This document shows, piece after piece, positions 2,810-42,386 of a stretch of DNA of 42,386 nt. The position numbers and the translations under genes are program-made. The notes under the pieces were generated by a model, which was given only the letters and a program-made list of their open reading frames with translations, was not told the origin of the DNA and did not search any database. The DNA comes from a virus. Where the stretch lies: positions 1-42,386 of the IMG/VR virus record IMGVR_UViG_3300006641_000007; one strand, given 5' to 3'. Positions within the stretch are counted from its first letter, which is position 1, and the number at the start of each line of letters is the position of its first letter.

Positions 2810-3187
2810 ATGGCGTTCACACCAGCAACCATCTATCAGCCGCAGTTTGCCGCCAATGGCGCAGCTGCGGCGCTAACGTTCTTTCCGTCGTCTGGTGCGG
2901 CCATCGCCACCGGATTGCTATATCAGATCAGTACGGCGTGGGCGGCAAACAACTCATCGTCTCCATGTTGGCTGGAAGTGTACCGGGTGCCGTCTGGTGG
3001 TACCGCTGGTGCGGCTACGAAGATTGGCCCACGCATCACGGTCCCGGTTGCGACTCAGGCGGTGCCCAATATCCCGCTGTCCATGTTGTGGGGAATCTAC
3101 CTCAATCCTGGCGACACGATTCACATGCTGGCGCAAACAGCCAGCGTAATTGTGGTAGAGGCTGATGGTGGAGTATGGACAACCTAA
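2810..3187 (+). CDS. Small beta-rich structural protein, function unknown
   Basis: A 125-residue, almost uncharged protein rich in Ala, Thr, Val and Pro, without a signal peptide. The pattern of alternating hydrophobic and small residues suggests a beta-sandwich such as a decoration or tail accessory protein. No close family is recognised. It starts 23 nt after the fibre gene. No good Shine-Dalgarno sequence is next to the ATG; a TAAACT hexamer lies 7 nt upstream. Its TAA overlaps the ATG of the acetyltransferase gene as TAATG. Confidence 0.6.
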   Translation: MAFTPATIYQPQFAANGAAAALTFFPSSGAAIATGLLYQISTAWAANNSSSPCWLEVYRVPSGGTAGAATKIGPRITVPVATQAVPNIPLSMLWGIYLNPGDTIHMLAQTASVIVVEADGGVWTT

Positions 3188-3681
3188 TGACCGCCGAACT
3201 GACCAAGGTATCACTGAAGCGCGGATTCCCGCTGGAAATGGCGAGTAAGCTCTGGCGCTGGCTGAATTCGCCGCGAGGCCCTAATTTCGATGATTTCGGC
3301 CCGCAGACACAGGCTCAGTTCATGATGGAACTGGCGGTGCGGGTTCGCCGGGAGCGCGCCTGGTCGATCATGGTTGATGGGGAAATCGTTGGTTACCTTG
3401 GCTTTGTCCCTCAGAACCCGATGGCCGGCCAGTTCCACGGCTTGGTGATCGCGCCGGAATATCGGCGGCAGGGGATTGGTCGGGATGCTTTTCGCGAGGC
3501 GATGGAAACATTGCGCGAAGAGGGCTACACCTCGTTTACGTCGATGCCGTTTGCGGACAATCGAGCCATCCATGAGTTGCTGTTTTCGCTCGGATTTCTG
3601 TGGGTCGGGGAACTCCCGAACGCTACGAAACGTGACGGCCAATTGTGTAGCCTGTCAATCTTCCACAAGGAGGTAAGGTAA
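3187..3681 (+). CDS. GNAT family N-acetyltransferase
   Basis: A 164-residue protein expected to transfer an acetyl group from acetyl-CoA to an amine; the substrate is unknown. The acetyl-CoA binding motif A is visible as RRQGIG at residues 93-98, followed by the helix FREAMETLREEGY. The typical C-terminal GNAT pattern of an Asn-containing turn (FADNRAIH) followed by LGF is also present. It lies between virion genes, with a TAATG junction on both sides. The start at 3187 is chosen because it overlaps the previous stop; an ATG at 3175 is an alternative. It may modify a virion protein or a host component. Confidence 0.8.
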   Translation: MTAELTKVSLKRGFPLEMASKLWRWLNSPRGPNFDDFGPQTQAQFMMELAVRVRRERAWSIMVDGEIVGYLGFVPQNPMAGQFHGLVIAPEYRRQGIGRDAFREAMETLREEGYTSFTSMPFADNRAIHELLFSLGFLWVGELPNATKRDGQLCSLSIFHKEVR

Positions 3682-14137: not shown

Positions 14138-14193
14138 TCCGGTGTAGCTCAGTGGCAGAGCTTGAGTGCGCGGGTTCGATTCCCGTCACCGTG
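14138..14193 (+). pseudogene. tRNA-like element lacking the anticodon arm
   Basis: The element has an acceptor-like stem (CGGTG 14140-14144 with CACCG 14187-14191), a perfect D arm (GCTC 14147-14150, loop AGTGGCA, GAGC 14158-14161), and a T arm (GCGGG 14170-14174, loop TTCGATT, CCCGT 14182-14186). Between D and T arms there are only 8 nt instead of an anticodon arm plus variable loop. No CCA is encoded. It is either a tRNA remnant with an internal deletion or a small RNA with a tRNA-like fold. The short frame through it (from 14080) reads like a translated tRNA and is not taken as a gene. Confidence 0.7.
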
Positions 14194-14280
14194 GGGAAAC
14201 GGAGACACTGGACGCGGTGCGTCGGGCTTCCCAGTGGGCCACCTAAACAGTGAGTACCGGGCGCACCGCATAGCAAAACA

Positions 14281-15788: not shown

Positions 15789-16236
15789 GTTTCATCGCCT
15801 CGTCAATGGCTTCGCGTGGGGTGTCCCCACTATACGTAAGATACTCCTGAGTTGGACGTCGGATATTCCACTTCCCCTCATCCGACTGCCATAGTACATA
15901 GCCGATGCGGGGGAATGCATCCAGCCGCGCCGTATCCTTCCGCGACTCTTCCAGTTCCGTGTTGCGTGGGTGGCCGTCTAGTTCATCGCAAATTTGCATC
16001 AGTTCCATTGTGCCGAACGGGTCGGCTAACGCACGCTCGGCCAGCGCCTTGACCTTCTCAAACGCGTCATACGCCTCTTCCAGTTCCGCGTTGCGCTTCT
16101 GGTGACTGGCTGTGCAAGCTGCAAGCTCGCGTTTGGTCTGCGCCAGTTCCAGCAGCACTTCCCGCATATCGGCGTTACCGTAGACGGCGGTAAAACGCTG
16201 TTCGGGCGTCAGGTGATCAAGTAATTCCTTTGTCAT
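15769..16236 (-). CDS. Coiled-coil hypothetical protein
   Basis: A 155-residue protein. The N-terminus contains LTPEQRFTAVYG, a long helix or coiled coil runs over about 25-75, and the C-terminal third is short beta/alpha. The start at 16236 sits in an ATGA overlap with the tiny zinc-ribbon gene and follows GGGTGGG. Function is unknown. Confidence 0.55.
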   Translation of the reverse strand: MTKELLDHLTPEQRFTAVYGNADMREVLLELAQTKRELAACTASHQKRNAELEEAYDAFEKVKALAERALADPFGTMELMQICDELDGHPRNTELEESRKDTARLDAFPRIGYVLWQSDEGKWNIRRPTQEYLTYSGDTPREAIDEAMKHENNQQ

Positions 16237-19727: not shown

Positions 19728-19936
19728 TTCGATGCTTCCTCCATGTCCTGTAAAACCTGAATTGCCAGCGCGATTGTCTCGCCGGATGGTGCCAACTGGC
19801 CAGCGCACCGCGCGCATTCGTCCCATTGCGCCACGCCGAAGCCTTCGACCTGCGCGGGCGTGAACGCCGAAGACCGGATATATTGCGCGATGGCGAAGGC
19901 TTTGCGCTCCCGCATCGCCGTGGTGAAGATGCTCAT
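19724..19936 (-). CDS. 70-residue hypothetical protein with one CxxC
   Basis: A helical protein with a CARC pair at about 41-44 and otherwise no recognisable domain. It sits directly after RecT with ATGA overlaps on both sides. Confidence 0.55.
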   Translation of the reverse strand: MSIFTTAMRERKAFAIAQYIRSSAFTPAQVEGFGVAQWDECARCAGQLAPSGETIALAIQVLQDMEEASK

Positions 19937-20919
19937 GCCAGCAACTCCTTGACGCGGGCAAACGCCTTGTCGCGATTCCGCGCCGGGATTTCATCCCACA
20001 TCGAAACGCCGAACTCGCGGGCAATACAATCAATAACGCGGGCCTCGCCGAACATAGTCACCAGCGCGGCAAACTGTTCGTCCTGCGGTTCGGCGGCGGC
20101 CTTGATTTCGATGAGTCGCTTGGACATTTCCCTATAGATGGATTTGCCCTTCGACAGCGGCTTGATGAGGTTCGATTTCGCGAACCCGTGAGCCAGGAGA
20201 ACTTCGTAGTACGCCGGTTCCGCGCCAAACTTCTGAAACTCCTTTTTCAGGTCGGCAAAGGCTTCCAGCATCTTGAACTTGTCCGGCTCCGGCGCGGATT
20301 CGTCGGCGGTCGGCGGTGGCGGCGGCAATGGCGGTTCCGCTTCGATGTCGATCACGTCGCCCTTGAGCGTGGCCAGCTTCGCGGCGGCAACTTCCTGCGC
20401 GGCTTGAATTTTGTCCTCGCGGGTTGGCTGTTCGTGGCCGATTTCCTCTTCGGTTACAACGCCGTTGATGGAGAATGACCTTTTCAGCGCGAGGACTTCA
20501 GCAACCTTGGATATCATGGCGCTTGGGTACTTCGCCCAAATACCGCCTCCCTTGGAATACTCACTGAAATAGGCCTCGCAGGTGATGGGGTGCGAACGAT
20601 CCTTGCGCCATACGGAACACGTGGCGCGGATCGGGACGTTTTTCGGATCGCGCTCAACCCGCGTTTCCATCCCGTCGAACATCGGATGTTCGTTCGCCAC
20701 GCGAAGGTACCCGTCACGGCCAGCCATAACGCCAACACCAGGCACGAACCAGATTTCCTTCAAAAACGGATTCAGTCCGGTGGCCTTGCAGATTTCCGCA
20801 AACATGCGGAACTGCGCCGGGGTTGCATCCTTGCAGACGGTAGCGCGAAGCGTGCGCTCCATCTCTGGATCATCCCACTTACTGGAAGCGCTTTCGATGC
20901 GGGCGACTTCGGCGCTCAT
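19933..20919 (-). CDS. RecT/Bet-family single-strand annealing protein
   Basis: A 328-residue protein. The N-terminal core shows the family pattern: a helix with ATPAQFRMFAEICKATGLNP, FLKEIWFVPGVG, AGRDGYLRVAN, a HPI strand, and KVAEVLALKRSF followed by GVVTEEEIG. The C-terminal 150 residues are a Pro/Glu-rich linker and a helical domain. These proteins anneal complementary single strands in phage recombination. They usually pair with an exonuclease, which is not seen here. The start at 20919 lies in an ATGA overlap with the first gene of the operon. RusA in the same operon could resolve the products. Confidence 0.85.
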   Translation of the reverse strand: MSAEVARIESASSKWDDPEMERTLRATVCKDATPAQFRMFAEICKATGLNPFLKEIWFVPGVGVMAGRDGYLRVANEHPMFDGMETRVERDPKNVPIRATCSVWRKDRSHPITCEAYFSEYSKGGGIWAKYPSAMISKVAEVLALKRSFSINGVVTEEEIGHEQPTREDKIQAAQEVAAAKLATLKGDVIDIEAEPPLPPPPPTADESAPEPDKFKMLEAFADLKKEFQKFGAEPAYYEVLLAHGFAKSNLIKPLSKGKSIYREMSKRLIEIKAAAEPQDEQFAALVTMFGEARVIDCIAREFGVSMWDEIPARNRDKAFARVKELLA

Positions 20920-21086
20920 AACTCGGTGTCCTTTAATATGGACACGTCGCTGATCGTGGCTGACCCCTCCAGCACCTCGTCGCATGTCTCTCGATTGAAT
21001 GCGGACACGGCAGACAGAATGCCGCCTATCCGCGCCAACTCGTCTGGCGGAATTTCGATTGTGATTTCGATTCGCAATTTCTGCAT
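20916..21086 (-). CDS. First gene of the leftward operon, 56-residue protein, possibly leaderless
   Basis: A small acidic protein (two strands KLRIEITIEI, then a helix LARIGGILSAVSAF). No family is recognised. The chosen ATG at 21086 lies exactly 6 nt after a TACGAT -10 box and has no Shine-Dalgarno sequence, so the mRNA probably begins at the start codon. An in-frame ATG at 21137 lies upstream of the promoter and is rejected. Confidence 0.55.
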   Translation of the reverse strand: MQKLRIEITIEIPPDELARIGGILSAVSAFNRETCDEVLEGSATISDVSILKDTEL

Positions 21087-21092
21087 GGACCC

Positions 21093-21121
21093 ATCGTAAT
21101 CCCTGCCGCACCGAATTGCAA
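21093..21121 (-). promoter_or_regulatory. Leftward early promoter PL (TTGCAA-17-TACGAT)
   Basis: On the minus strand, TTGCAA (21121-21116), a 17-nt spacer and TACGAT (21098-21093) form a sigma70-like promoter. The predicted start coincides with the ATG at 21086. It mirrors the rightward promoter around position 21133.5. Confidence 0.65.
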
Positions 21122-21123
21122 GA

Positions 21124-21144
21124 GGAAATTTCCGCAAATTTGCG
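21124..21144. promoter_or_regulatory. Twin AAATTT palindromes, operator candidate between divergent promoters
   Basis: GGAAATTTCC (21124-21133) and CGCAAATTTGCG (21133-21144) are perfect palindromes whose centres are 10 bp, about one helical turn, apart. They fill the space between the two -35 boxes. Ribbon-helix-helix proteins such as Arc and MetJ bind tandem short boxes cooperatively, and an RHH gene begins about 70 bp away. The link to that protein is inference. Confidence 0.6.
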
Positions 21145-21145
21145 C

Positions 21146-21174
21146 TTGACTACGGAGGCGGGATGGATTACGAT
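21146..21174 (+). promoter_or_regulatory. Rightward early promoter PR (TTGACT-17-TACGAT)
   Basis: TTGACT (21146-21151), a 17-nt spacer and TACGAT (21169-21174) form a good sigma70-like promoter. The predicted start is at the ATG at 21181, which opens only a 26-codon frame overlapping the RHH gene in another frame. The RHH gene would then have a 34-nt leader. Confidence 0.7.
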
Positions 21175-21214
21175 TGGTGCATGACCTTCAAGACAGGTCA
21201 GGATGGGACGGGAA

Positions 21215-21397
21215 ATGAAGACAAAAAAGGTGAGCTTCCGGGCACCGGAGCACTTGGCTGATGCTATCAAAACGCACACGAAGTCCGAGGGCCGCACAAT
21301 GGAAAGTTGGCTGGCAGATGCGGCGCGGGATGCTCTGCCGCCCGCCGTTCGCCGCAAGCTGGCGCGGATCGCGAAGGGGGAGAAAAATGGGCGCTAA
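21215..21397 (+). CDS. Ribbon-helix-helix DNA-binding protein (regulator candidate)
   Basis: A 60-residue protein. A basic N-terminal strand (KTKKVSFRA) is followed by helices LADAIKTHTKSEG and MESWLADAARDAL, the strand-helix-helix order of Arc/CopG-type repressors, and a basic tail. The ATG at 21203 is an alternative start. As first gene of the rightward early unit next to twin palindromes, it is a likely autoregulator and a candidate early switch protein. Confidence 0.7.
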   Translation: MKTKKVSFRAPEHLADAIKTHTKSEGRTMESWLADAARDALPPAVRRKLARIAKGEKNGR

Positions 21398-22334
21398 AAC
21401 CGGCATCGCATGGACAGATGCAACGTGGAATCCGATTCGCGGGTGTTCGATGGCGAAGGGGTCCGAGGCGAAGGGTTGCCTCAACTGCTACGCCGCGCGG
21501 CTGGCTGCGCGGAACTTGCCGGAGTTGAGGTCGCCGACGACGGGCGAATCATTCGCGCGTATCCTGCCATCCGGCCCGCGCTGGACCGGCAAGGTCGAAC
21601 TGATCGAATCGCAACTGTTGTTGCCGTTGCGGTGGCGCAAACCGAAGCGGATTTTCGTCAATTCGATGAGCGACCTGTTCCATGAGGCGTTGTCGGATGA
21701 GGCCATCGACCGGGTGTTTGCCGTCATGGCGCTCTGCCCGCAGCACACGTTTCAAGTGCTCACGAAGAGGCCGGATCGGATGCTGGCGTACATGACGAAC
21801 GTTAAAACACTTGGATGCTTTTCGGAGCGGTTCGGTGTAGTGTGGCCTGCCACGGAAACAGGGACGGTCAAGGTTGCGCCAGGCATAGAGTTTCCCGTGA
21901 TGACTGAAAGTTGGCCACTTCCCAACGTCCACCTCGGCGTCTCGGTCGAGGACCCGGAAACCGCTGAGGCGCGGATTCCGCTGTTACGACAGACTCCGGC
22001 GGCGAAACGGTTCGTCAGCTACGAACCGGCACTGCGGCCGATTGGATTTGGGAGATACCTCGTGGATGGGAGTGGGCCGAAGTTTCTCGACCAGATCATC
22101 ATCGGTGGCGAATCAGGCCCGAAGGCGCGACCGTTCGATGTGCAATGGGCCTACGACACCATCCGGCAATGCCGCGATGCTGGCGTGGCGTGTTTCGTCA
22201 AGCAACTTGGGGCGAAGGCATATGAGTCAATTGACATAAAACGCGATTGGCGTAGGAACTGGACGCATCGTGATCGCGCCGGGGCCGATCCGTCCGAGTG
22301 GCCAGCAGATTTGCGTGTTCAGGAGTTGATATGA
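21387..22334 (+). CDS. DUF5131 (phage Gp37/Gp68) family protein
   Basis: A 315-residue protein starting with TGIAWTDATWNPIRGC, the signature of the DUF5131 family. Cys20, Cys31 and Cys34 (GCLNCYA) form its conserved cysteine site, which in the family is thought to hold an iron-sulphur cluster as in radical-SAM-like proteins related to spore photoproduct lyase. Further family segments are RIFVNSMSDLFHE, FQVLTKRPDR, HLGVSVEDPETAE and GGESGPKARP. The phage function is unknown. AAGGGGGAG precedes the ATG, which overlaps the RHH gene by 11 nt. Confidence 0.85.
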   Translation: MGAKTGIAWTDATWNPIRGCSMAKGSEAKGCLNCYAARLAARNLPELRSPTTGESFARILPSGPRWTGKVELIESQLLLPLRWRKPKRIFVNSMSDLFHEALSDEAIDRVFAVMALCPQHTFQVLTKRPDRMLAYMTNVKTLGCFSERFGVVWPATETGTVKVAPGIEFPVMTESWPLPNVHLGVSVEDPETAEARIPLLRQTPAAKRFVSYEPALRPIGFGRYLVDGSGPKFLDQIIIGGESGPKARPFDVQWAYDTIRQCRDAGVACFVKQLGAKAYESIDIKRDWRRNWTHRDRAGADPSEWPADLRVQELI

Positions 22335-22777: not shown

Positions 22778-22923
22778 CGCCCGCGATTCAGCGGTGCCGG
22801 AACGAACAGCGGCAAGCGGCCACGTTGCTTTTGGCTGGGCACCATGAGCAACACGGGCTACGCATGGCGGTGACGGATTGGATACTGGAGGAGATTTTGT
22901 TGGAGGACACATGCAGTCAGTAG
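22774..22923 (+). CDS. 49-residue helical protein
   Basis: A short protein with two amphipathic helices (RCRNEQRQAATLLLAG and MAVTDWILEEILLE). It starts in an ATGA overlap and ends 13 nt inside the helicase-methyltransferase gene, whose Shine-Dalgarno sequence (TTGGAGGAC) it contains. Function is unknown. Confidence 0.5.
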   Translation: MTPAIQRCRNEQRQAATLLLAGHHEQHGLRMAVTDWILEEILLEDTCSQ

Positions 22924-25256
22924 TGGACGAATATCAGGAGTACCTGGCGGGGAAACTGGTATCGGCACCGGCAAGCGGGTTCGAGGTTGCAGAATCCGAG
23001 TTGAACTCGCGGCTGATGCCGTGGCAACGGCGGATTGTGGCGTGGGCGTGCAAGCGCGGGAAAGCGGCGCTACTGCCAGATACCGGCACAGGCAAGACGT
23101 TCATGCAGCTGGAATGGGCGCACCGGGTTTGCTTGTTCACTGGAGGCGACGTGCTGATTTTGGCACCATTGGCGGTTGCCAATCAAACCGCAAGGGAAGC
23201 GGCAAAGTTCCAGATAGGCACGCCGGTCACGGTTTGCCGAACGATGGCAGATGTGCGGCCAGGTATCAACGTCACCAATTACGAGATGCTGGAGCACTTC
23301 GACACGGCGCACTTCGCCGGGGTGGTTCTGGACGAATCGTCTATTTTGAAGTCATATTCCGGAACCACGAAAAAGGCGCTGGTGGCAGCATTCGCGCTGA
23401 CTCCGTACAAGCTGGCATGTACCGCAACGCCAGCGCCTAACGACCACATGGAGATCGGCAATCACGCGCAGTTTCTGGACGTGATGAGTTCGTCGGAAAT
23501 GCTTTCCCGCTGGTTCCTGAATGACACCATGAAAGCGGGGGGCTACAGGCTCAAAGCGCACGCGGTCAAGGACTTTTGGCGCTGGGTAGCGACGTGGGCG
23601 GTTACACTGTCTAAGCCGTCTGATATTGGCTTCTCCGATGAAGGCTACGACCTTCCGCCGCTGGAGATTCTGCAACACGTCGTTGAGGTGGACCAGTCCA
23701 TAGCAACTGAAGGCATGCTGTTCCGTTCGCCGGATCTGAGCGCAACCGGGCTACACAAGGAAATGCGGCTGACTGCACCGGCGCGGGCTGCGAAGGTGGC
23801 GGAGATTATCGCGCTTCGCCCGGATGAGCAATGGCTGGTGTGGTGCAACACGGATTACGAGGCTGACGAACTGGCGGCGCGGATCGACGGGTTGACCGAA
23901 GTCCGCGGCAGTCATTCGCGGGCGCATAAAGAGGCTGCAATGTTGGGGTTCTCGGAAGGGGCGGTTCGTGTTTTCTCCAGCAAGCCTGTCCTCTGCGGGT
24001 TTGGGATGAATTGGCAGAACTGCCGCAACGTGATTTTCGTTGGGCTGAGCTACAGTTACGAACAGTTCTATCAGGCACTCCGCCGATGCTGGCGGTACGG
24101 CCAAACGCGGGCAGTCACGGCGCATGTGGTTTGCGCGGAAACCGAGGGCCCTGTGTTGGCCACAATCGAACGGAAACGTAAGGACCACGAAAACATGAAG
24201 GCTGAAATGATTGAGGCGATGCGCGGTCAAACGATGGAGCAATTGGGAGTCGGCCCGAAACTGAAGACGGATTTCGAGCGCGACATTCGCACAGGCAATG
24301 GCTGGGAGATTCGACTTGGTGACTCCGTGGAGTTGTTGCGCGAGGTTCCGGATGGTCAGATTGACCTGTCTGTTTTTTCGCCGCCGTTTGCCAATCTCTA
24401 CATCTACTCCGACTCCGTGCGCGACATGGGCAACACTGCCAACGATGCCGAATTCTTCCGGGCGTTCGGCTTCATCGCGAAGGAGCTTTACCGCGCTACC
24501 AAGTCCGGGCGGCTGGCCGTGATCCACTGCAAAGACCTGCCGACGTATCGCGGGCGGGATGGTGCCAGCGGTCTGAAGGACTTTCCGGGCGATATCGTCA
24601 GGTTGTTCGAGGCACACGGATGGGACTTTCATTCCCGCGTGACGATCTGGAAGTGCCCGGTCACTGAGCGGGAGCGAACGAACAATAACGGATTGCTCCA
24701 CAAGTCAGTGACGCGGGATTCCAGCCAAATACGTCAAGGCATGGCGGATTATTTGATTGTCATGCGGAAAACTCCGAATGGCGATAGCAATCTGTCGGAA
24801 GTGCCAATCGCACGACCGGAAGGGTTTACGCGCTACGAGGGAGAATCGGACCCGCGCAAGAACAGTTTCCATCCGTCACCGTTCGCACGCACCGAGTTCG
24901 ACGGCAAGCGGGACTCTATCGCGATCTGGCGGCGCTACGCTGAGCCTGTTTGGTGGGATATCAATCAGACCGACGTGCTGAATGTGAAAACTTCCCGAAC
25001 TGAGAACGAAGAGCGACACATATGCCCGTTGCAGATGGGCGTAATTCGTCGCGCAATCGAGTTGTGGAGTCTTCCGGGCGAGTTGGTGTTCTCTCCATTC
25101 GGCGGCATCGGGTCGGAAGGCGTGGGGGCGCTGGAAATGGGGCGCAAGGCACTGCTGTTCGAGCTGAAGCGGGAGTACTTCCAGATTGCCACGCGGAATC
25201 TGGACGCGGCAGAAGTGCAGGAAACACTGTTCGATTTTGGAGGGAACGATGAGTAA
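22911..25256 (+). CDS. SNF2-like helicase fused to a beta-class DNA methyltransferase
   Basis: A 781-residue, two-part enzyme. Residues 30-420 form a superfamily 2 helicase: PWQRRI (Q-like, 37-42), Walker A DTGTGKT (57-63), motif II DESS (141-144), motif III TATP (171-174) and motif VI around QALRRCWRYGQTR (388-400). Residues 455-781 form a methyltransferase with motif IV SPPF (490-493) before motif I SPFGGIG (728-734), the order of beta-class enzymes; SPPF suggests N4-cytosine or N6-adenine. The two are fused in one frame with a Lys/Glu-rich linker (420-450). It may methylate phage DNA as protection from restriction while moving along DNA. No restriction partner is visible. Confidence 0.85.
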   Translation: MQSVVDEYQEYLAGKLVSAPASGFEVAESELNSRLMPWQRRIVAWACKRGKAALLPDTGTGKTFMQLEWAHRVCLFTGGDVLILAPLAVANQTAREAAKFQIGTPVTVCRTMADVRPGINVTNYEMLEHFDTAHFAGVVLDESSILKSYSGTTKKALVAAFALTPYKLACTATPAPNDHMEIGNHAQFLDVMSSSEMLSRWFLNDTMKAGGYRLKAHAVKDFWRWVATWAVTLSKPSDIGFSDEGYDLPPLEILQHVVEVDQSIATEGMLFRSPDLSATGLHKEMRLTAPARAAKVAEIIALRPDEQWLVWCNTDYEADELAARIDGLTEVRGSHSRAHKEAAMLGFSEGAVRVFSSKPVLCGFGMNWQNCRNVIFVGLSYSYEQFYQALRRCWRYGQTRAVTAHVVCAETEGPVLATIERKRKDHENMKAEMIEAMRGQTMEQLGVGPKLKTDFERDIRTGNGWEIRLGDSVELLREVPDGQIDLSVFSPPFANLYIYSDSVRDMGNTANDAEFFRAFGFIAKELYRATKSGRLAVIHCKDLPTYRGRDGASGLKDFPGDIVRLFEAHGWDFHSRVTIWKCPVTERERTNNNGLLHKSVTRDSSQIRQGMADYLIVMRKTPNGDSNLSEVPIARPEGFTRYEGESDPRKNSFHPSPFARTEFDGKRDSIAIWRRYAEPVWWDINQTDVLNVKTSRTENEERHICPLQMGVIRRAIELWSLPGELVFSPFGGIGSEGVGALEMGRKALLFELKREYFQIATRNLDAAEVQETLFDFGGNDE

Positions 25257-27209: not shown

Positions 27210-27964
27210 TGCCAGCGATACCCTACATGCCGCTGTATGTGGCTGACTACCTGGCCGACGCCGGGCACCTAACCACAACCGAACACGGGGCCTACCTGCT
27301 GCTCATCATGGGCTACTGGCAGCGCGGTGGTCCATACCGAGCGTCCGATGAACGGACGTTGAACGGACGTTTAGCGAACGTTGCACGGATGTCCATCGGC
27401 GAGTGGGCTAAAATTTCGCGTGTCATAGCCGAATTCTTTCAGGTGACACAGGATGACCACATGGAGTGGTACCACAAGCGCATCGAGGCAGAACTGGCCA
27501 AGTTTCGAGCTAAGTCATTGCAAGCAAAGGAAGCTGGGATCGCGTCCGCTCAACGGCGGCTCAGTGGGCGTTCAACGGGCGTTGCCATTCCGTTGCAACG
27601 GACGTTCAACCATACAGATACAGATACAGATACAAGAAAGTCAAAGTCTTTAGCGCGCGAGGCGCGCAAGAAAGCAACGAAGTTTCAGCAAATGCCGGAA
27701 GGCTTCGCTGAATACCCGAAGACCAAGTTTCACTGGCAACAATCGCGGATCGACCGGGAAGCGGAAAAGTTCGCGAACTACTGGACCTCGAACGGAAAGT
27801 GCATGGTGGACTGGATGGCAACCTGGCGGAATTGGTGCCTGAACGCGGAGGAGAGGCAATCGCCGAAGCGGGCAGGGAATGGCTACTACGGCGATGATTT
27901 TGTCCCGATGCCGTTGACGGACGGCGACGGGAACCCGATTGGCAAGGCCAGGGTGGACATATGA
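27209..27964 (+). CDS. DUF1376 (YdaU-like) replication initiator candidate
   Basis: A 251-residue protein. The N-terminus PYMPLYVADYLADAGHLTTT...GAYLLLI is the hallmark of DUF1376, a winged-helix domain found in phage replication organiser proteins. A HTDTDTDT linker (about 135-142) separates it from a C-terminal domain with FANYWTSNGKCMVDWMATWRNW, a pattern shared with phage O-like helicase-loader proteins. It is followed directly by the DnaB-like helicase (ATGA). It probably binds the origin and loads that helicase. The start at 27209 matches the domain; a GTG at 27200 is an alternative. Confidence 0.8.
   Translation: MPAIPYMPLYVADYLADAGHLTTTEHGAYLLLIMGYWQRGGPYRASDERTLNGRLANVARMSIGEWAKISRVIAEFFQVTQDDHMEWYHKRIEAELAKFRAKSLQAKEAGIASAQRRLSGRSTGVAIPLQRTFNHTDTDTDTRKSKSLAREARKKATKFQQMPEGFAEYPKTKFHWQQSRIDREAEKFANYWTSNGKCMVDWMATWRNWCLNAEERQSPKRAGNGYYGDDFVPMPLTDGDGNPIGKARVDI
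27614..27634. repeat. ACAGAT microsatellite in the DUF1376 linker
   Basis: Three perfect ACAGAT units plus a partial unit encode Thr-Asp repeats in the interdomain linker. Such short arrays are common in replication-protein linkers and may vary in length. Confidence 0.8.
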
Positions 27965-30978: not shown

Positions 30979-31091
30979 CGCTGCGTTTCCAACGGCGGCA
31001 GGTGCCGCGAGTTTCTGCAATGTTACGGCTACAGCATGACCGAAATCGGCAGTAGAGGGGCAAATTGGGTTGCGAGGTTTACAGGCACAGA

Positions 31092-32387
31092 ATGACTGTC
31101 GATTTCCCATCAAAGCTCCGCCCACTGTTCACGCCGTCGCGGTGGAAGTCGATACGCGGCGGCCGTGACGGCGGGAAGTCATGGGGCGTTGCGCGGGCAC
31201 TCTTAGAGCGCGGGGCAAGCAAGCGCGAATTCATCGTTTGCGCGCGCGAAACCATGGAGTCGATCAAGGACTCAGTACATAGACTCCTGGTGGATCAAAT
31301 CGAAGCGCTCGGCATGCAAGACCAGTGGGATGTGGAGAAAGCGGTGCTGCGCCATCGGTTTACCGGCACTGAGATTGTCTTTCGTGGTCTGAAGAACCCG
31401 GACGCGCTGAAGTCGCTGGAAGGCGCCACTATCGTCTGGATCGAGGAAGCGCAGACGGTCAGCGCGGAATCGTGGCGCAAAGTTCCTCCGACAGTTCGCC
31501 GTGACGGGTCGGAAATATGGCTAACGTGGAACCCGGAGCTTGAAACCGATCCCACCTGGCAGAAGTTCGTAGTCCATCCGCCTCCGGGAATGATCGAGAT
31601 TATCATGAACTTCTCGGACAATCCATGGGCGTCGAAGGTTCTGCAACCAGAGCGGGAACAGATGAGAATTCAGGACCCGGACGAATACCAGCACGTTTGG
31701 CTGGGGCAACCGAAACGACAGATTGAGGGCGCGGTGTATGCCAAGGAAATCCGGCTTGCTGAGGAACAGGGGCGAATTGGGCAGGTTCCGTATCATGACG
31801 GCGTTGTAGTGCGCTGCGGCTGGGACTTGGGCGATTCGGACATCATGGCGGTGTGGTTCATCCAGTCCATGCAGGGACAGCACCGAGTAATCGACTACTA
31901 CGAGAATCGGCACGAGGATCTAGATCACTATCTGAATGTCTGCGAGTCGAAGGGCTACAAGTACGGTGAGGATTACTTCCCTTGGGATGCGGCCAGCAAA
32001 GTATTGGCTAATGCGCTTGAGACTACCATGCGTCAGAGGGGGCGCAATGTAAGAGTCCTGCCGCGAATGTCGCGCGATGTAGGGATAGACCGGGTGCGGG
32101 AAATGCTCGGAACGTGCTGGTTTGACATCGACAAGTGCGCGGACGGGCTGAATCGGTTGCGGTACTACCGATATGGGCAGACTTCGGTTATTGATCCACG
32201 GACTGGTGACCGGAGTTTGTCGCGTGAGCCCTTGCATGACGATAACTCGCACGGGGCCGACGCACTGCGATCGTTTGCGATGGGTTACCGTATGCCGAAG
32301 GAAGGCCCGAAGCCGATTCCGCCGGGGTCGAGGATGCCGATTCAGCCACCGCCGCGCCGGAGCGGGAGTTATTCTCCGTTCGGATAG
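31092..32387 (+). CDS. terL: Terminase large subunit (Terminase_3/PBSX type)
   Basis: A 431-residue packaging motor. The ATPase domain has Walker A GGRDGGKS (23-30), Walker B IVWIEE (114-119) with the catalytic Glu, and LTWNPE as the coupling motif region. The nuclease domain begins near WDLGDSD and has DNSHGADALR near residue 390, the conserved acidic and His site of the RNase-H-like fold. It packages concatemers into proheads, probably headful as suggested by the circular permutation. The start at 31092 overlaps a short upstream frame (ATGA); a TTG at 31065 is less likely. Confidence 0.92.
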   Translation: MTVDFPSKLRPLFTPSRWKSIRGGRDGGKSWGVARALLERGASKREFIVCARETMESIKDSVHRLLVDQIEALGMQDQWDVEKAVLRHRFTGTEIVFRGLKNPDALKSLEGATIVWIEEAQTVSAESWRKVPPTVRRDGSEIWLTWNPELETDPTWQKFVVHPPPGMIEIIMNFSDNPWASKVLQPEREQMRIQDPDEYQHVWLGQPKRQIEGAVYAKEIRLAEEQGRIGQVPYHDGVVVRCGWDLGDSDIMAVWFIQSMQGQHRVIDYYENRHEDLDHYLNVCESKGYKYGEDYFPWDAASKVLANALETTMRQRGRNVRVLPRMSRDVGIDRVREMLGTCWFDIDKCADGLNRLRYYRYGQTSVIDPRTGDRSLSREPLHDDNSHGADALRSFAMGYRMPKEGPKPIPPGSRMPIQPPPRRSGSYSPFG

Positions 32388-32418
32388 AGAAAGTTGGTGG
32401 TTGTGGTATTTGAAAGTG

Positions 32419-32427
32419 TGATACTGT
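32419..32427 (+). promoter_or_regulatory. Extended -10 promoter TGATACTGT
   Basis: TGn precedes TACTGT (32422-32427). Six nt (ATTTGC) later lies the ATG at 32434, without Shine-Dalgarno. A TTGTGG lies 15 nt upstream of the -10 box. Confidence 0.5.
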
Positions 32428-32433
32428 ATTTGC

Positions 32434-32538
32434 ATGGACGCGAAAAAGACAGCAGCGGAATGCGCCAGCCAGTACGGCGTTCGGCCCGGCCAGAGGGTGA
32501 CAGTGGCGGACCTGATGCGGAAAAAGGGCAAGAAGTAG
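32434..32538 (+). CDS. 34-residue basic peptide, probably leaderless
   Basis: A short basic peptide (ECASQYGVRPGQRVTVADLM plus a Lys-rich end). The start is at the predicted transcription start of an extended -10 promoter. The gene lies between TerL and a zinc-binding protein gene. Function is unknown. Confidence 0.4.
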   Translation: MDAKKTAAECASQYGVRPGQRVTVADLMRKKGKK

Positions 32539-32540
32539 CG

Positions 32541-32774
32541 ATGACGCCAACCGTTATTGCGTTGCGCGGGCGAGATGGGCTGAGAATTTCTCAGGAAACG
32601 TTTCGTTCAAGCGTGGCAGTGCGGTCTGTTCGGGTGACTTTCCATGGTGCTACGGTGGCGTGTCGCAAGACGAAAAACGCATGGAAGTGCGGTAAGTGCC
32701 AGCGTGGTAATCTTGGGGCCAGACCTGTGATTGGGGCCAGATGCAAGGTTTGCAAAAGCGAGGTTGTTCAATGA
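32541..32774 (+). CDS. 77-residue zinc-ribbon protein
   Basis: Cys50, Cys53, Cys68 and Cys71 (CGKC and CKVC) form a C-terminal zinc ribbon; the N-terminal 45 residues are basic with beta strands. It starts 2 nt after the previous stop, and its stop overlaps the next ATG. Nucleic acid binding is likely. Confidence 0.6.
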   Translation: MTPTVIALRGRDGLRISQETFRSSVAVRSVRVTFHGATVACRKTKNAWKCGKCQRGNLGARPVIGARCKVCKSEVVQ

Positions 32775-32956
32775 AGATCACATGCAAGGCGTGCGGCGGC
32801 GGTGGCGACGATTGCAAGACCTGCAACGGCGAAGGGCGGATTGAGGCCTGTATTACGGCCTTCCCTGAAGTTCCGGCGACATTAAAGCCATCAGACGACA
32901 TTCAGCCCGAACAGGGTACACGAGCGCCGGGACTCACTACCCGGAGAAAGAAGTAA
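32771..32956 (+). CDS. 61-residue DnaJ-type zinc finger protein
   Basis: Cys5, Cys8, Cys15 and Cys18 occur as CKACGGGG and CKTCNGEG, the CxxCxGxG half-repeats of the DnaJ zinc centre, followed by a disordered tail. There is no J domain. It may act as a small chaperone-like or nucleic-acid-binding protein. It is ATGA-coupled to the upstream zinc ribbon. Confidence 0.6.
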   Translation: MKITCKACGGGGDDCKTCNGEGRIEACITAFPEVPATLKPSDDIQPEQGTRAPGLTTRRKK

Positions 32957-32959
32957 ACC

Positions 32960-33955
32960 ATGCCATTACTCACCCAAACCAACGGCGGAAGTCTTCAGAA
33001 TTCCACGCTGGCCACCATCAACACGATTGCGGCGTCGATCTTCCCGTCTCAGGGGAACATCTACTTTGTCGCACCGTACAGCGGGAGCGACAGGAACCCC
33101 GGTACCGTCGCCGCGCCGTTCAAGACTTTGGCTTTCGCGCTTTCACAGGCGACGGCTGGCCAGAACGATGTTATCTACCTGCTGGCGCAGTCGAATACTG
33201 CCGCAAACACGACGGATTACCAGACGGCCACGCTGAACTGGAACAAGGACCTGGTGCATTTGGTCGGCGTCAACGATTCGCCGTTTCTTGGCCAGCGTTC
33301 GCGTGTGGCGTTCGATTCGGCCTATGCGACGGCCTCAAACCTTTTCACGCTGTCAGCTAACGGGTGCCTCATCAGTGGCATCAGCTTTTTCGCTGGTGTT
33401 GCATCCGCGCTTCCGACTGGTTGTATGCAGGTCACCGGCCAACGCAACCGCATTGTCAACTGCCAGATTTCCGGCATGGGGAACAGCGCGAACGACATCA
33501 GCGGAGCATATTCGCTGTATCTGAACGGCGCGGCGGAAAACGTTTTTGAGAATTGCTACATCGGGCTGGACACGGTTACGCTCGGCGCTCAGGCGAATTC
33601 CCAGATCAAGTGCGCATCGGCGGCGACCCGCAACCTGTTCAGCGATTGCCAGATCGTGACGTACACCAACCACGCGACGAATAACAACTTTCTGCGGTGC
33701 CCGACTTCAAGTCTGGACCGCTGGTTGGAATTCTCAAACTGCCGGTTTGTCAACCCGATCGATTCCAGTTCCACCAACCTGACGCAGGCCTTCATCGTGG
33801 CATCGGATGCGGGCGGAACTGTGTTGCTGACGGGCGGAAACACTGGCGTTTTGGGCGCAACTGACTGGAATTCGACCGATAGCGGCAACGTTACGGCGAT
33901 CAACGGCACAGTGACGGCTGGCACTTACGGGCTGGCGGTTGACGTGACCAGGTAG
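32960..33955 (+). CDS. Right-handed beta-helix protein between terminase and portal
   Basis: A 331-residue protein. NIYFVAPYSGSDRNPGTVAAPFKTLAFAL (split here for its parts: NIYFVAPYSGSDRN, then APFKTLAFAL) at about 33-61 is typical of DUF1565 and pectate-lyase-like beta-helices; repeated strand-turn units with conserved Asn and Cys follow to 250, and a Thr/Gly-rich end. No signal peptide. It is probably a virion surface or head-fibre protein, but a tailspike-like depolymerase is possible. It is the last gene before a strong terminator, so it can be expressed apart from the head genes. Confidence 0.65.
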   Translation: MPLLTQTNGGSLQNSTLATINTIAASIFPSQGNIYFVAPYSGSDRNPGTVAAPFKTLAFALSQATAGQNDVIYLLAQSNTAANTTDYQTATLNWNKDLVHLVGVNDSPFLGQRSRVAFDSAYATASNLFTLSANGCLISGISFFAGVASALPTGCMQVTGQRNRIVNCQISGMGNSANDISGAYSLYLNGAAENVFENCYIGLDTVTLGAQANSQIKCASAATRNLFSDCQIVTYTNHATNNNFLRCPTSSLDRWLEFSNCRFVNPIDSSSTNLTQAFIVASDAGGTVLLTGGNTGVLGATDWNSTDSGNVTAINGTVTAGTYGLAVDVTR

Positions 33956-33962
33956 TAAACTG

Positions 33963-33992
33963 GGGGGCCGTCTTCGGGCGGTCCCCATTTTT
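33963..33992 (+). terminator. Rho-independent terminator with UUCG loop
   Basis: A 10-bp GC-rich stem (33963-33972 with 33977-33986) is capped by TTCG closed by a C-G pair and followed by ATTTTT. It separates the beta-helix gene from the head genes. Head gene transcription must start beyond it or read through. Confidence 0.85.
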
Positions 33993-34001
33993 CAGGAGAC
34001 A

Positions 34002-34139
34002 ATGCAAGTGGACTTTTCAAAGTGCATGAACGCCAGAGACGAGCATGGACGCATTATCATCAACCCGGTTCCGGTGAACCGTAAGCCCATCGCTCTGACC
34101 GAAGATCAGATCCTAAAACTATTCCGGGAGCGTTCGTAA
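34002..34139 (+). CDS. 45-residue hypothetical protein
   Basis: A small protein (GRIIINPVPVNRKPIAL, then a helix TEDQILKLFRER). CAGGAG lies 4 nt before the ATG, and the stop overlaps the next start (TAATG). It is the first gene of the head operon after the terminator. Confidence 0.55.
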   Translation: MQVDFSKCMNARDEHGRIIINPVPVNRKPIALTEDQILKLFRERS

Positions 34140-34522
34140 TGGAAGACACAATCGACATTGCGGCGCAATACGCGGGGATTCGGGCAGACATCCCACTGGA
34201 AGCGACTCATCTGGTGATGACGTTGCCCAGCAGGCGGAATGCAGGGATGTGGCGGCTGAAGGACGGCATGTTCATCGGGGAGGCCGCTGACAAGACGGTA
34301 GTTTTCGGTCCTAATCCGAACAAACGGGAATCGCGGCTGTTTATTTCGCACGAGAAGGCTAAAAGCTACCTGATTGACGTAGTGGCCGCTGAAGATGCGG
34401 AGGACGGCGTACCGATCATATTCGAGCATAATCAGGAAAAGGCGTCCCTGATCGTGCTGCCTGGTGGCGATCCGTCGCTTGTCGTTAACGGAGCAGTGCC
34501 GAACGTGCGAAAATTCAACTAA
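34139..34522 (+). CDS. 127-residue hypothetical protein before the portal
   Basis: A mixed alpha/beta protein (EATHLVMTLPSRRNAGMWRL, then strand-rich FGPNPNKRESRLFIS and IIFEHNQ). No family is recognised. It is closely linked to the portal operon and possibly a minor head protein. Confidence 0.55.
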   Translation: MEDTIDIAAQYAGIRADIPLEATHLVMTLPSRRNAGMWRLKDGMFIGEAADKTVVFGPNPNKRESRLFISHEKAKSYLIDVVAAEDAEDGVPIIFEHNQEKASLIVLPGGDPSLVVNGAVPNVRKFN

Positions 34523-34708
34523 ATGACTAAGGTTTCGTGGTTGTTGATAATTTTCGGTATACCAATGGCGTCCATGCCAGCGGCATATCAATTGTTGCAC
34601 CCAGATGCGACTACATTCCGAGCCGTGATTGAAACAGCCCCCTATTCCATTGCTGGACCTTTAATGGTATGGGCTGGATTCCTGATCTTTAAAAGTTTAG
34701 AGGAATAA
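34523..34708 (+). CDS. 61-residue membrane protein with two spans
   Basis: Hydrophobic segments at about 5-22 and 42-57. It starts right after the previous TAA, and its stop overlaps the portal ATG (TAATG). Function is unknown; a small membrane protein in a head operon is unusual. Confidence 0.5.
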   Translation: MTKVSWLLIIFGIPMASMPAAYQLLHPDATTFRAVIETAPYSIAGPLMVWAGFLIFKSLEE

Positions 34709-36849
34709 TGCCGACCATCGCCCGCAAAGATATCCCGCAGTTCGTCCGCCGCTGTTACGATGCCTGGAAAAAGGCCGGAATTCAGACGCGGATGGAGGAG
34801 ACAGAGCGGCTCAAGTTCTATGCGGGCGGTGATGGGCAATGGCGGGATGCGGAGATTCAGAAGCGCCGCGACTCAGGGCGTCCATGGATCACGATAAACA
34901 AGTGCAAGCCGCCTGTTGACCAGATCGAGGGCGATATCAGGCTGAATCCTCCGGGGCCGAGCGTCAAGCCGGTTGGGGAAGTGGCAGATGCGGCAGACCC
35001 GGATATCATTGCTGGCCTGATTCGGGAAACGGAGTACCGCAGCAGCGCGGTAAGCGCGTATAGCACGGCTGGCAAGTACGTTGCGGCATCTGGTTGCGCT
35101 TATCTGGAGTTGGCGACGGAGTACGTTTCCGATACCAGTTTCGCGCAGCAGTTGCGGATTGACGCAATTGAAGACCCTGCGATGGTGTTCTTCGATCCTG
35201 CGTCCCGAAGGCTGGATCGGCGGGATGCAACGTGGGCTGGCAAGATTCGGATGCTCTCCAAGGAGCAGTATGAGGCTACGTTCGGAAAGCGGCGGGTGCT
35301 GGAACCTGCGGGGGTGCAGATTGCGGCGGGCTGGATTCAGGACGCTCTTGGAATCGGCGGCAACATGGCCGAAATCAACGAATGGACCGGCATGGGGAAG
35401 GGTCCATTCTACGTTGTTGAGTTTTATCTGGTAGAGACGAACCCGACGAAGTTGCGGCTGTACTCCAACGGGATCAGTTACTTCGATGACGAGACAAGGC
35501 CAGATGGAATTGTGCCGAAGGGTGGAGAAGAAAACACCCGCATCGTGCCGCGCCGCGTGGTCACCAAGTTCGTAGTGGATGCGTTGGAGATTTTGGACGA
35601 GACGGAATGGTTGGGGGATATGATCCCGATATTCCCGGTACTCGGCCCAGAGGTCTACATCGATGGACGGCTTCACCGGCTGAGCCTGATTGCGGGCGCG
35701 ATGGATTCTCAGCGGGCGCTGAACTATGTTGCGACCACGGCGGCGGAACTGACCGGGGCGCTACCCAAGGCGCCGTGGATTGGGCCGAAGGGATCGTTTG
35801 AAGATCAGCGCTGGGAATCGGCCAATTCGGAGATGTGGGCGTATTTGGAATACACTCCGGTTTTCGTCACCGACGAAACGACGGGCGGCCAGACGCTTGC
35901 GCCAGCCCCGCAGCGCAACATGTGGGAAGCGCCGATTCAATGGCTGATGATGTTGGGGCAGTGGTACAGCGACAACATCAAGGCGACGACATCAATCTAC
36001 GATGCTTCGCTTGGGCGTGAAAAGGGCGATCAGTCAGGCAAGGCGATTGAGCAACTGCGGAGTGAGTCGAATGTTGCCAACTTCAGTTACGCCGACAATC
36101 TGCACCGGGCGATTGAGGTGATGTACCAGCAGATGTGCATTATCTTCCCGAAAATTTTGGACGGCCCGCGCGTCGTGCAGATTGTGCGGCCCGATTCGCA
36201 GCATGAGACAGTGCGAATCAATCAGATTTTTGGGGAAGATGGAATCGACCCGCAGACGGGGAAGAAGGGGAAGGCGAACAATATTGCGCTTGGCCAGTAC
36301 TCTTGTCGCGTTGTGGCTGGCCCGAACTTCCAGACCCGTCAGGACCAGGCACTCCAGATGTTGCTGGATGCGGTCAAGATCAACCCGAACATCCTTGCGA
36401 ATCCGGCAGTTACGGCAAAGTTGGTGCGGATGATTGGGCAGGGTAACCCGGAAATGGAAGGCATCGCGGATATCATTGCGCCGAACGATTCCGACTCCAA
36501 CCCGCAGCAGATGGCACAGCAGATGCAACAGATGGCGGCGCAGAATCAGCAACTTATCCAGGCCGTGCAGGCGCTGCAAATGGAAATCAAGACGCAGGCT
36601 CCGAAACTGGCTCTGGAGAAGTACAAAGCAGATCAGGACGCGGCGGTGAAGTTGGCGGTGGCCGAAATCGGTGCCAAGAATCAGGCGGCGGCGCGGGCCT
36701 CGGCGGATGAACTGGCGACACGGCAAATGCATGAAGAGATGGCGCACGATGTGGCTATGGCAGCGCAGAATCAGGAACACGCGCAGGAGAACATGGCAGT
36801 AGAACAGCAGCGGGAATCAGTGCAAGCGAATCAGGAGACAACTGAATGA
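34708..36849 (+). CDS. P22-like portal protein
   Basis: A 713-residue protein, close to P22 gp1 (725 aa). Family segments include WRDAEIQKRRDSGRPWITIN and a following VDQIEGDIRLNPP (about 48-82), conserved in this portal group. The last 120 residues are a Gln/Ala-rich helix (MAQQMQQMAAQNQQ) that matches the extended helical barrel of P22 portals. It forms the dodecameric DNA channel at one capsid vertex, binding terminase and then the gp4 ring. The stop overlaps the scaffold start (ATGA). Confidence 0.9.
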   Translation: MPTIARKDIPQFVRRCYDAWKKAGIQTRMEETERLKFYAGGDGQWRDAEIQKRRDSGRPWITINKCKPPVDQIEGDIRLNPPGPSVKPVGEVADAADPDIIAGLIRETEYRSSAVSAYSTAGKYVAASGCAYLELATEYVSDTSFAQQLRIDAIEDPAMVFFDPASRRLDRRDATWAGKIRMLSKEQYEATFGKRRVLEPAGVQIAAGWIQDALGIGGNMAEINEWTGMGKGPFYVVEFYLVETNPTKLRLYSNGISYFDDETRPDGIVPKGGEENTRIVPRRVVTKFVVDALEILDETEWLGDMIPIFPVLGPEVYIDGRLHRLSLIAGAMDSQRALNYVATTAAELTGALPKAPWIGPKGSFEDQRWESANSEMWAYLEYTPVFVTDETTGGQTLAPAPQRNMWEAPIQWLMMLGQWYSDNIKATTSIYDASLGREKGDQSGKAIEQLRSESNVANFSYADNLHRAIEVMYQQMCIIFPKILDGPRVVQIVRPDSQHETVRINQIFGEDGIDPQTGKKGKANNIALGQYSCRVVAGPNFQTRQDQALQMLLDAVKINPNILANPAVTAKLVRMIGQGNPEMEGIADIIAPNDSDSNPQQMAQQMQQMAAQNQQLIQAVQALQMEIKTQAPKLALEKYKADQDAAVKLAVAEIGAKNQAAARASADELATRQMHEEMAHDVAMAAQNQEHAQENMAVEQQRESVQANQETTE

Positions 36850-37805
36850 GCACGGCAACGTTAGAACATCCAACAGAACAGCAGGTATTCGACGCCAAGG
36901 CATACATGGATGCGGCCAACAAGGGAGAGCGGCCCGCGCCGGGAAAGCCCGAAGAAAAACCAGCAGAGGAAGCGAAGGAACCGGAGAAAGCAGCGGAATC
37001 ACCGAAACCGGCAGATCATGAACAGCCGCGACTGCCGCGATCTGTTCGTCGCGAGCTGAACCGCCTTCGCGAGGAGTTGGGGGCGGCAAAGGCAAAAGCT
37101 GAACTGCTGGAAAAATTCGGGGCGAAGGCGCAGCACGTTGATGCCGACGAAGATACCGAGCCTCAACGGGATGACTTTGGCAGCGATGCGGAATACCTCC
37201 GCGCTGTTAGTAAATGGGATCGCGCGCAGGAAGCCAAACAGCAGCAGCAGCAGGGCAAGACCGAGCAACAGTCTGCGGAAATCCGCGCTCACCTGAAAGC
37301 GATGGACGAAAAGGCCGTGGCCGATATTGCGGCGTACTTCCCCGACTGGGACGAAGTTTCCGCTGCCGCCGCTGAAGACGAAGACGCCCCGGAGTTCAAG
37401 TTTGAGGAGCATCCGCAATTGGTCGGGATGCTATCCGGCAGTGAGTTTCGTGCCCATGTTCTGTATCACTGGGCCAAGAATCCTGATGCTCTTCAGTTCA
37501 TGCTTGACCTGACAGCCAAGCCATCGGAGCAGATCAGGGCTTTCCACCGTCTTGAAGGACGGCTGGAAAAGGAGTATAGTGGGAAACAGGCCGCGCAAGC
37601 CTCTGAAGCGGAAACGCCAAAGAAAGACCGCAAGCACCTCGCAGACGCCGAAAGGCCGGGCGAAACCGCAGCGGATCGAGATGTCCGCAAACCGAGACCG
37701 TCTACGGATGTAGCGGCTAGGGGTGGTTCGGCCCCGCCAGATGAACCCGCAATCGGGTCGGCTGCGTGGATGGCAAAACGCAATCAGGCGGCTTACGCTC
37801 GATAG
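36846..37805 (+). CDS. Capsid scaffolding protein
   Basis: A 319-residue, highly charged, Glu/Lys/Ala-rich helical protein between portal and coat genes, about the length of P22 gp8 (303 aa). Long coiled-coil stretches (60-85, 125-165) and a basic, partly disordered C-terminus, which in P22 binds coat, are visible. Scaffold directs prohead assembly and leaves before packaging. Confidence 0.75.
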   Translation: MSTATLEHPTEQQVFDAKAYMDAANKGERPAPGKPEEKPAEEAKEPEKAAESPKPADHEQPRLPRSVRRELNRLREELGAAKAKAELLEKFGAKAQHVDADEDTEPQRDDFGSDAEYLRAVSKWDRAQEAKQQQQQGKTEQQSAEIRAHLKAMDEKAVADIAAYFPDWDEVSAAAAEDEDAPEFKFEEHPQLVGMLSGSEFRAHVLYHWAKNPDALQFMLDLTAKPSEQIRAFHRLEGRLEKEYSGKQAAQASEAETPKKDRKHLADAERPGETAADRDVRKPRPSTDVAARGGSAPPDEPAIGSAAWMAKRNQAAYAR

Positions 37806-37864
37806 CGACACCCTAAACCGTAAAACCCGGCAGAACCTCGGCACCTTACACAGGAGCGCGGTAT

Positions 37865-39100
37865 ATGCCAATCAATTCGGTTCCAGTACGGCAAGAAGTC
37901 ACTGCTGAAGTCTTGCGCGTGCTGATGAACAACTGTTTCGCGTTACGGATGATCCGTCGCGAACACCAGAAGTACTTCGAGCAGAGTACTCCAATCGGGA
38001 CAACTCTGCAAATCAAACGTCCGTGGCGTCCCCAGGGTCGTCAGGGACAGGCTTTCCAGCCGGAACCCATCGTCCAGACCACCGTCCCGCTGTCCATTTC
38101 GTACTGGCGCGGCGGCGATTTCGTCTACAACGATACCGACGAAGCCCTGTTCCTCGACATGGGCAACTTCCACCGCAACTATTCGATGCCGATGGGCGTC
38201 ATGATCGCTAACCAGATCGACTCTGATCTGCTGGCTTTCATGCAGGTCACGGCCCCGAACTTTGTGGGGACTCCCGGCACTCTTCCGACCACAACGGCGG
38301 TTTACAACTCGGCGCAGACCAGCCTTAATAAGCTGCTTGCACCGCAGAACGATCGCGCTGTGATTTACACGTCGGAATACAACCAGAACCTCGTCGGCGC
38401 AGGTCAAACGCTGTTCAACCCGGCGCGCGACATCAGCGACCAGTACCTCGAAGGGTATGTTGGCAAGTACGCCGGTTTCAAGTTCGGCATTGACGAACAG
38501 ATTCCTGGCTTCACCGTCGGCACCTACGCTGGTACGGGCCGCGTCAATGGCGCGAGTCAATCGGGAACCAGCCTCATCACCGATGGATGGACCGCTTCGA
38601 GCCTCAGCCTGAACCCCGGCGACCGGTTCACCATCGCTGGCTGCTACAAAGTGAATCCGAGCGGTACTCACGTTGCGTACTCCGGTACTGCCAACCTGAT
38701 GCAGTTCGTGGTCACGGCGGCGGTCACCGATTCGAGCGGCGATGCAACGATCCAGATTTACCCGCCGATCATTCCTTCGGGGCAATTCCAGAACTGCACG
38801 GCTCCAGCCGATAACGCTGTAATCACCATTGCTGGCGCTTCGGGGTCTTCGTGCAACACGGCTTTCTACCTTCAGCAGGATGCGTACACCGCCGCCTTCC
38901 TGAAGCTGCACAAGCCGTCTAACGTGGAATGCACCGTCATGGGCGGCGAAGAGTCGGGCACGCCCGGCATCTACCTCCGCAATATTCGTCAGTGGCAGTC
39001 GAGCGGCCCTTACCAGGGCTACGAGACCGACCGCACGGATGTGATCTACGGGTTCGCCCCGCAGTACGCGGATTACATGGCGGGGGTTATCTACGGTTAA
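37865..39100 (+). CDS. Major capsid protein, P22 coat type
   Basis: A 411-residue protein (P22 gp5 is 430 aa). The N-terminal arm and HK97-fold region include IRREHQKYFEQ and GTTLQIKRPWRPQGRQGQAF. A beta-rich stretch with NPGDRFTIAGCYKVNP and VTDSSGDATIQIYPPII (about 240-310) resembles the P22 coat accessory segment. AGGAGCG precedes the ATG. It follows the scaffold by 59 nt. Confidence 0.85.
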   Translation: MPINSVPVRQEVTAEVLRVLMNNCFALRMIRREHQKYFEQSTPIGTTLQIKRPWRPQGRQGQAFQPEPIVQTTVPLSISYWRGGDFVYNDTDEALFLDMGNFHRNYSMPMGVMIANQIDSDLLAFMQVTAPNFVGTPGTLPTTTAVYNSAQTSLNKLLAPQNDRAVIYTSEYNQNLVGAGQTLFNPARDISDQYLEGYVGKYAGFKFGIDEQIPGFTVGTYAGTGRVNGASQSGTSLITDGWTASSLSLNPGDRFTIAGCYKVNPSGTHVAYSGTANLMQFVVTAAVTDSSGDATIQIYPPIIPSGQFQNCTAPADNAVITIAGASGSSCNTAFYLQQDAYTAAFLKLHKPSNVECTVMGGEESGTPGIYLRNIRQWQSSGPYQGYETDRTDVIYGFAPQYADYMAGVIYG

Positions 39101-42292: not shown

Positions 42293-42386
42293 ATGAGCAT
42301 CAACTTCGATGGCTTCATCGGCCCTTCGTATCAGTTGGACAATTCCTATGCGGGGATTGAGCGGCTGGTCAACGCCTTCCTCATCG
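42293..42386 (+). CDS. P22 gp10-like protein (5' part; continues at base 1)
   Basis: The ATG at 42293 begins MSINFDGFIGPSYQLDNSYA and runs through the terminal repeat into the main part at 1-1569 after circular joining. It lies 5 nt after the second gp4-like gene. No clear Shine-Dalgarno sequence is present. Confidence 0.75.
   Translation, partial: MSINFDGFIGPSYQLDNSYAGIERLVNAFLI
42317..42386. repeat. Terminal direct repeat, right copy
   Basis: These 70 bases are identical to 1-70 and represent the overlap of a circular assembly. Confidence 0.95.

Follow-up and report, generated by a model that had tools for sequence, protein, structure and literature searches.

Near mirror-image promoters beside a predicted Arc-like gene suggest a divergent early control region in a viral genome

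The viral record IMGVR_UViG_3300006641_000007 (42,386 nucleotides from an uncultured phage, analysed over its whole length and referred to here as the window) carries near its middle an imperfect 100-bp dyad in which two predicted promoters lie back to back, almost as mirror images, next to a gene for a small ribbon-helix-helix (RHH) protein of the Arc/Mnt type. At the sequence level there is good support for identifying it as a control region for early transcription in both directions. The reading that we favour goes further, and we give it a probability of about 0.5: the dyad would be the single hub of divergent early transcription in a podophage, probably a lytic one, at which the RHH protein likely represses both promoters by way of two central palindromes.

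The dyad is real and stands well above chance. Its 35 paired positions out of 50 are the best score of all axes in the window (runner-up, 27 of 50), compared with maxima of 25 to 28 in simulated genomes (n = 20, Markov); the mean score is 12.7, with a standard deviation of 3.2. A preliminary description of the sequence had pointed to a 19-nt segment copied in mirror orientation on the opposite strand with two mismatches. Sequence comparison bears this out: GGATTACGATTGGTGCATG (21165-21183, + strand) and GGATTACGATGGGTCCATG (21084-21102, - strand) differ at 2 of 19 positions. Inverted-repeat detection widens the arms to 26 nt, of which 22 are complementary (85%); under the same test, the next best pair in the window reached 19, as did the highest of the simulations. 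The 42,386-bp record contains two exact occurrences of the arm GGATTACGATKGGTSCATG, which are arranged head to head, and no third copy of the motif was found in the window at three mismatches or fewer. This led us to reject a genome-wide promoter motif or the target of a phage sigma factor, as just two copies are present.

Promoter-like sites were ranked with an E. coli-type sigma-70 weight matrix on both strands of the whole window. Both promoters of the dyad fall within the top seven (Table 1), and would therefore have been picked even without the dyad. Their -35 boxes, their -10 boxes and the ATGs at the edges of the dyad are symmetric about the axis, as had been described, and the predicted start sites coincide with these ATGs (21181 on the + strand and 21087 on the - strand, 94 bp apart). 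The match of the -35 box to the consensus is 5/6 for the rightward promoter and 4/6 for the leftward one, so that equal expression in the two directions, which the preliminary description proposed, is doubtful and finds no support here.

Symmetry of the ATGs does not imply symmetry of the genes, because the RHH gene starts 34 nt past the right-hand ATG, after a purine-rich stretch. The right-hand ATG itself opens a frame of 26 codons, out of phase with the RHH gene. The dyad does adjoin the RHH gene, which is the first clear gene to its right, but the edge ATG (21181) is not the start of that gene, which lies at 21215 or 21203. To the left, the ATG of a 56-aa open reading frame (p56) falls on the predicted leftward start, which makes a leaderless p56 mRNA plausible.

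Gene direction (the coding strand) and GC skew both reverse at the dyad, and recombination/early operons begin on both sides of it. Opposed promoters between divergent early operons are the pattern of a divergent phage early control region, and, with both promoters in the top seven, the bidirectional role first proposed for the region is well supported by the sequence.

The centre of the dyad, between the two -35 boxes, is occupied by the palindromes GGAAATTTCC and GCAAATTTGC, whose centres are 10 bp apart and symmetric about the axis. The latter forms part of CGCAAATTTGCG; the palindromes at the centre, 10 and 12 bp long, are perfect and end in G/C. Each contains an AAATTT, at 21126-21131 and 21136-21141, as previously noted; a pair of AAATTT at 10-bp spacing was found in 0 of 60 simulated genomes. 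Binding of RHH dimers side by side, about one helical turn apart, is a known mode of operator recognition (Arc, MetJ, CopG), and the central palindromes are the best operator candidate because their spacing suits such an arrangement. Another copy of GCAAATTTGC, at 15988-15997 within a leftward open reading frame, is probably due to chance.

The RHH gene is the sole Arc-like region in the record, and its product of 60 to 64 aa is the sole DNA-binding regulator recognised there. Among HTH families the search covered HTH_3 (PF01381), and it found no such repressor in the record. Control of both promoters by the RHH protein is plausible, given that it is the only Arc-like protein, that no HTH_3 repressor was found and that the spacing of the palindromes suits its dimers.

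Under the favoured reading, two back-to-back promoters of the host sigma-70 type, near mirror images of each other, would fire both early operons: the leftward one would transcribe p56 and recT, and the rightward one the RHH gene, DUF5131, helicase/methylase and replication genes. Expression from the rightward promoter would supply RHH dimers, which would sit next to each other on the AAATTT palindromes and deny RNA polymerase its upstream contacts at either promoter. Its build-up would then turn down both early operons, including its own (autorepression). The dyad, the quality of both promoters, the arrangement of the genes and the lack of other recognised regulators are computed results, to which this reading adds by inference promoter activity, a leaderless start of p56, the binding of the RHH protein and the direction of its effect.

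Several points weigh against this reading. The evidence for an RHH protein is consistent but weak: the match to Pfam PF03869 (E = 7e-4, 19.8 bits) just misses the curated cut-off of 20.4 bits, a PHROG match is to the Arc-like phrog_3178 (E = 4.8e-4), and the closest solved sequence, P22 Mnt, matches weakly (E = 0.39). A single-sequence fold model is poor (pLDDT 65), with an extended N-terminus and helices at 15-29 and 33-44, and the best PDB neighbours of this low-confidence model are Arc structures (E = 0.79). Binding to the palindromes is itself a prediction. The promoter ranks rest on an E. coli-type matrix that may not fit the host. Mirror identity is highest not just at the central palindromes but in the arms from -10 to +3, a pattern for which RHH binding at the centre would not by itself account, and the AAATTT blocks stand, relative to each promoter, at about -45 to -40, which is equally the position of an UP element. 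Finally, the region has no independent homologue; in relatives that share RecT, portal, helicase or DUF5131, different genes lie next to these.

The position of the AAATTT blocks relative to both predicted starts leads to the best-surviving alternative, namely that the central A/T blocks are UP elements shared by the two promoters and contacted by the alpha subunit of RNA polymerase, the RHH protein acting elsewhere and the early genes being constitutively strong. A precedent exists in phage PY54, where the cI and cro transcripts are leaderless and the divergent repressor promoters carry an UP-like element (PMC4488713). However, UP elements do not need perfect palindromes with G/C ends, and the RHH gene lies immediately downstream. 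We consider this explanation possible, if somewhat unlikely.

The strength of the outer arms might instead indicate that the segments from -20 to +3 are paired operators of another regulator, with control exerted at the -10 box and start rather than at the centre. The identity of 22/26 does extend over positions +1 to +3, and it takes in a GCGG block, dispensable for promoter function, on the upstream side of the -10 box. Yet the arms are internally only weakly palindromic, no third copy exists in the genome and no second regulator was recognised; single-arm matches in viral contigs lie mostly within long reading frames, and none is a convincing promoter copy. This possibility appears improbable. 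Still less probable is that one promoter was recently duplicated in inverted orientation, the symmetry having no regulatory meaning beyond the presence of two promoters. The 35 of 50 pairs with scattered mismatches, and arms that are 85% alike, do resemble a decayed inverted copy, but the mismatches are concentrated in the -10/-35 spacer (about 21110-21118 and its mirror), and the -10 boxes and the palindromes at the centre have been preserved, as selection would do. A bidirectional replication origin, suggested by a local minimum of cumulative GC skew at the dyad, is highly improbable, given that the skew tracks coding direction, that there is no DnaA-box cluster and that short tandem repeats inside a primosomal/replication gene are a likelier origin.

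A stronger proposal is a mirror-symmetric early switch in a lytic podophage, at which one RHH repressor on the central palindromes would set the transcription of leaderless p56 and recT to the left together with that of the RHH gene, DUF5131 and replication genes to the right, the symmetry having been selected for a fixed balance of the arms; we regard it as somewhat unlikely. The lack of a recognised integrase argues against a switch in the sense of lysogeny: among integrases the search covered the tyrosine type (PF00589), which it detected in 14 control genomes and did not detect in the record. A lambda-type lysogeny switch, composed of an HTH repressor and an integrase, does not fit either on the families covered, neither PF01381 nor PF00589 having a match in the record.

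Divergent repressor-controlled phage promoters are classical, and the present region is an unusually neat case of this known type. The region resembles lambda OR and the immB regions of PY54 and N15 in its back-to-back promoters, with operators (here candidate operators) between divergent early genes. It differs from these lambdoid-type regions in having a single RHH gene, with no HTH_3 repressor pair or tyrosine integrase found, and in a dyad that spans the whole promoter pair, whereas theirs comprise several operators placed asymmetrically. The immI region of P22 (mnt-arc-ant) is similar in that Arc/Mnt RHH repressor genes control phage promoters, and the portal of the present genome is P22-like. 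In contrast to immI, the RHH gene is here at an early hub and has recT and DUF5131 for neighbours, the two promoters mirror each other, no second RHH gene was found in the record, and no ant match was found among the genes scanned. An immI-type region, which the portal suggested, was rejected since the gene neighbourhood does not fit (DUF5131 as right-hand neighbour, one Arc-like region). A limited literature search found no description of an early hub that combines near-complete mirror symmetry with just one RHH gene.

Only one other contig, 3300006917_000172, shares the region; the near-identical contig shows no difference there over a length of more than 7 kb and adds no evolutionary information. 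It was the sole match to the RHH and p56 queries, and apart from it searches returned no homologue of p56. RHH and p56 queries returned nothing in phage records, nor did the RHH query in four DUF5131-bearing genomes. Relatives of RecT, portal, DUF5131 and the helicase-methylase had no such dyad, no RHH gene or another layout. A scan of viral contigs with the dyad pattern gave no match with the promoter layout outside this phage: five matches were one repeated sequence of another phage, one was a low-complexity repeat and one was unrelated.

Table 1. Features of the dyad and of the adjoining genes
Feature	Position	Strand	Remarks
Imperfect 100-bp dyad	21084..21183	.	axis 21133.5; 35/50 pairs
Right 26-nt arm	21158..21183	+	from spacer via -10 box to ATG at predicted start; 22/26 against 21084-21109
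Left 26-nt arm	21084..21109	-	mirrors the right arm
Predicted rightward promoter	21146..21174	+	TTGACT-17-TACGAT; rank 3 among sigma-70-like sites of the window
Predicted leftward promoter	21093..21121	-	TTGCAA-17-TACGAT; rank 7 among sigma-70-like sites of the window
-35 boxes	21116-21121, 21146-21151	-, +	symmetric
-10 boxes	21093-21098, 21169-21174	-, +	symmetric; TACGAT in both arms
Central palindromes	21124..21143	.	GGAAATTTCC (21124-21133), GCAAATTTGC (21134-21143); candidate RHH operator or shared UP element
RHH (Arc/Mnt-like) protein	21215..21397	+	60 aa (64 aa if start 21203)
DUF5131 (Gp37/Gp68)	21387..22334	+	PF07505, E = 2e-67; overlaps end of RHH gene
p56, 56-aa open reading frame	20916..21087	-	ATG at predicted leftward start site; overlaps recT by ATGA
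RecT single-strand annealing protein	19933..20919	-	PF03837, E = 1.6e-22; gene 2 of leftward operon

An exact 70-bp direct repeat at the ends of the record (1-70 and 42317-42386) makes it probable that the genome is circular and complete, with 42,316 bp. Compared with positions 31065-38389 of the record, a contig that shares the portal at 67% identity carries the terminase the other way round, and its early region differs. The fused helicase and N6/N4 DNA methylase (22878-25256, + strand) has 356 relatives in viral contigs, one of which, at 86% identity, has wholly different upstream genes, which points to module swapping. Further to the right, the tandem repeats inside the primosomal/replication gene, at 27349-27389 (11 bp, 3.7 copies) and 27612-27634 (ATACAG, 3.8 copies), are a possible replication origin. 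The top promoter-like site of the genome, TTGACC-17-TAGAAT (14053), lies about 60 nt upstream of a tRNA-like element (14138-14194, + strand; Rfam tRNA, 34.1 bits, E = 1.5e-5) that was not called by ARAGORN and in which the anticodon arm is largely or wholly missing (the match skips these model positions); candidate identities are a tRNA-like RNA, the remnant of a tRNA or a relic of an attachment site. Amid left-part genes without assigned function, a GNAT acetyltransferase gene was recognised (3175-3681, + strand; PF00583, E = 7e-14).

The dyad would mark the start of early transcription in a phage lineage for which no close cultured relative was found. If the favoured reading is true, it would represent a natural promoter that is compact and works in both directions, its matched arms being governed by one small repressor. 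It would then offer a way to ask why phages balance their recombination operon against their replication operon, and possibly a symmetric regulatory part.
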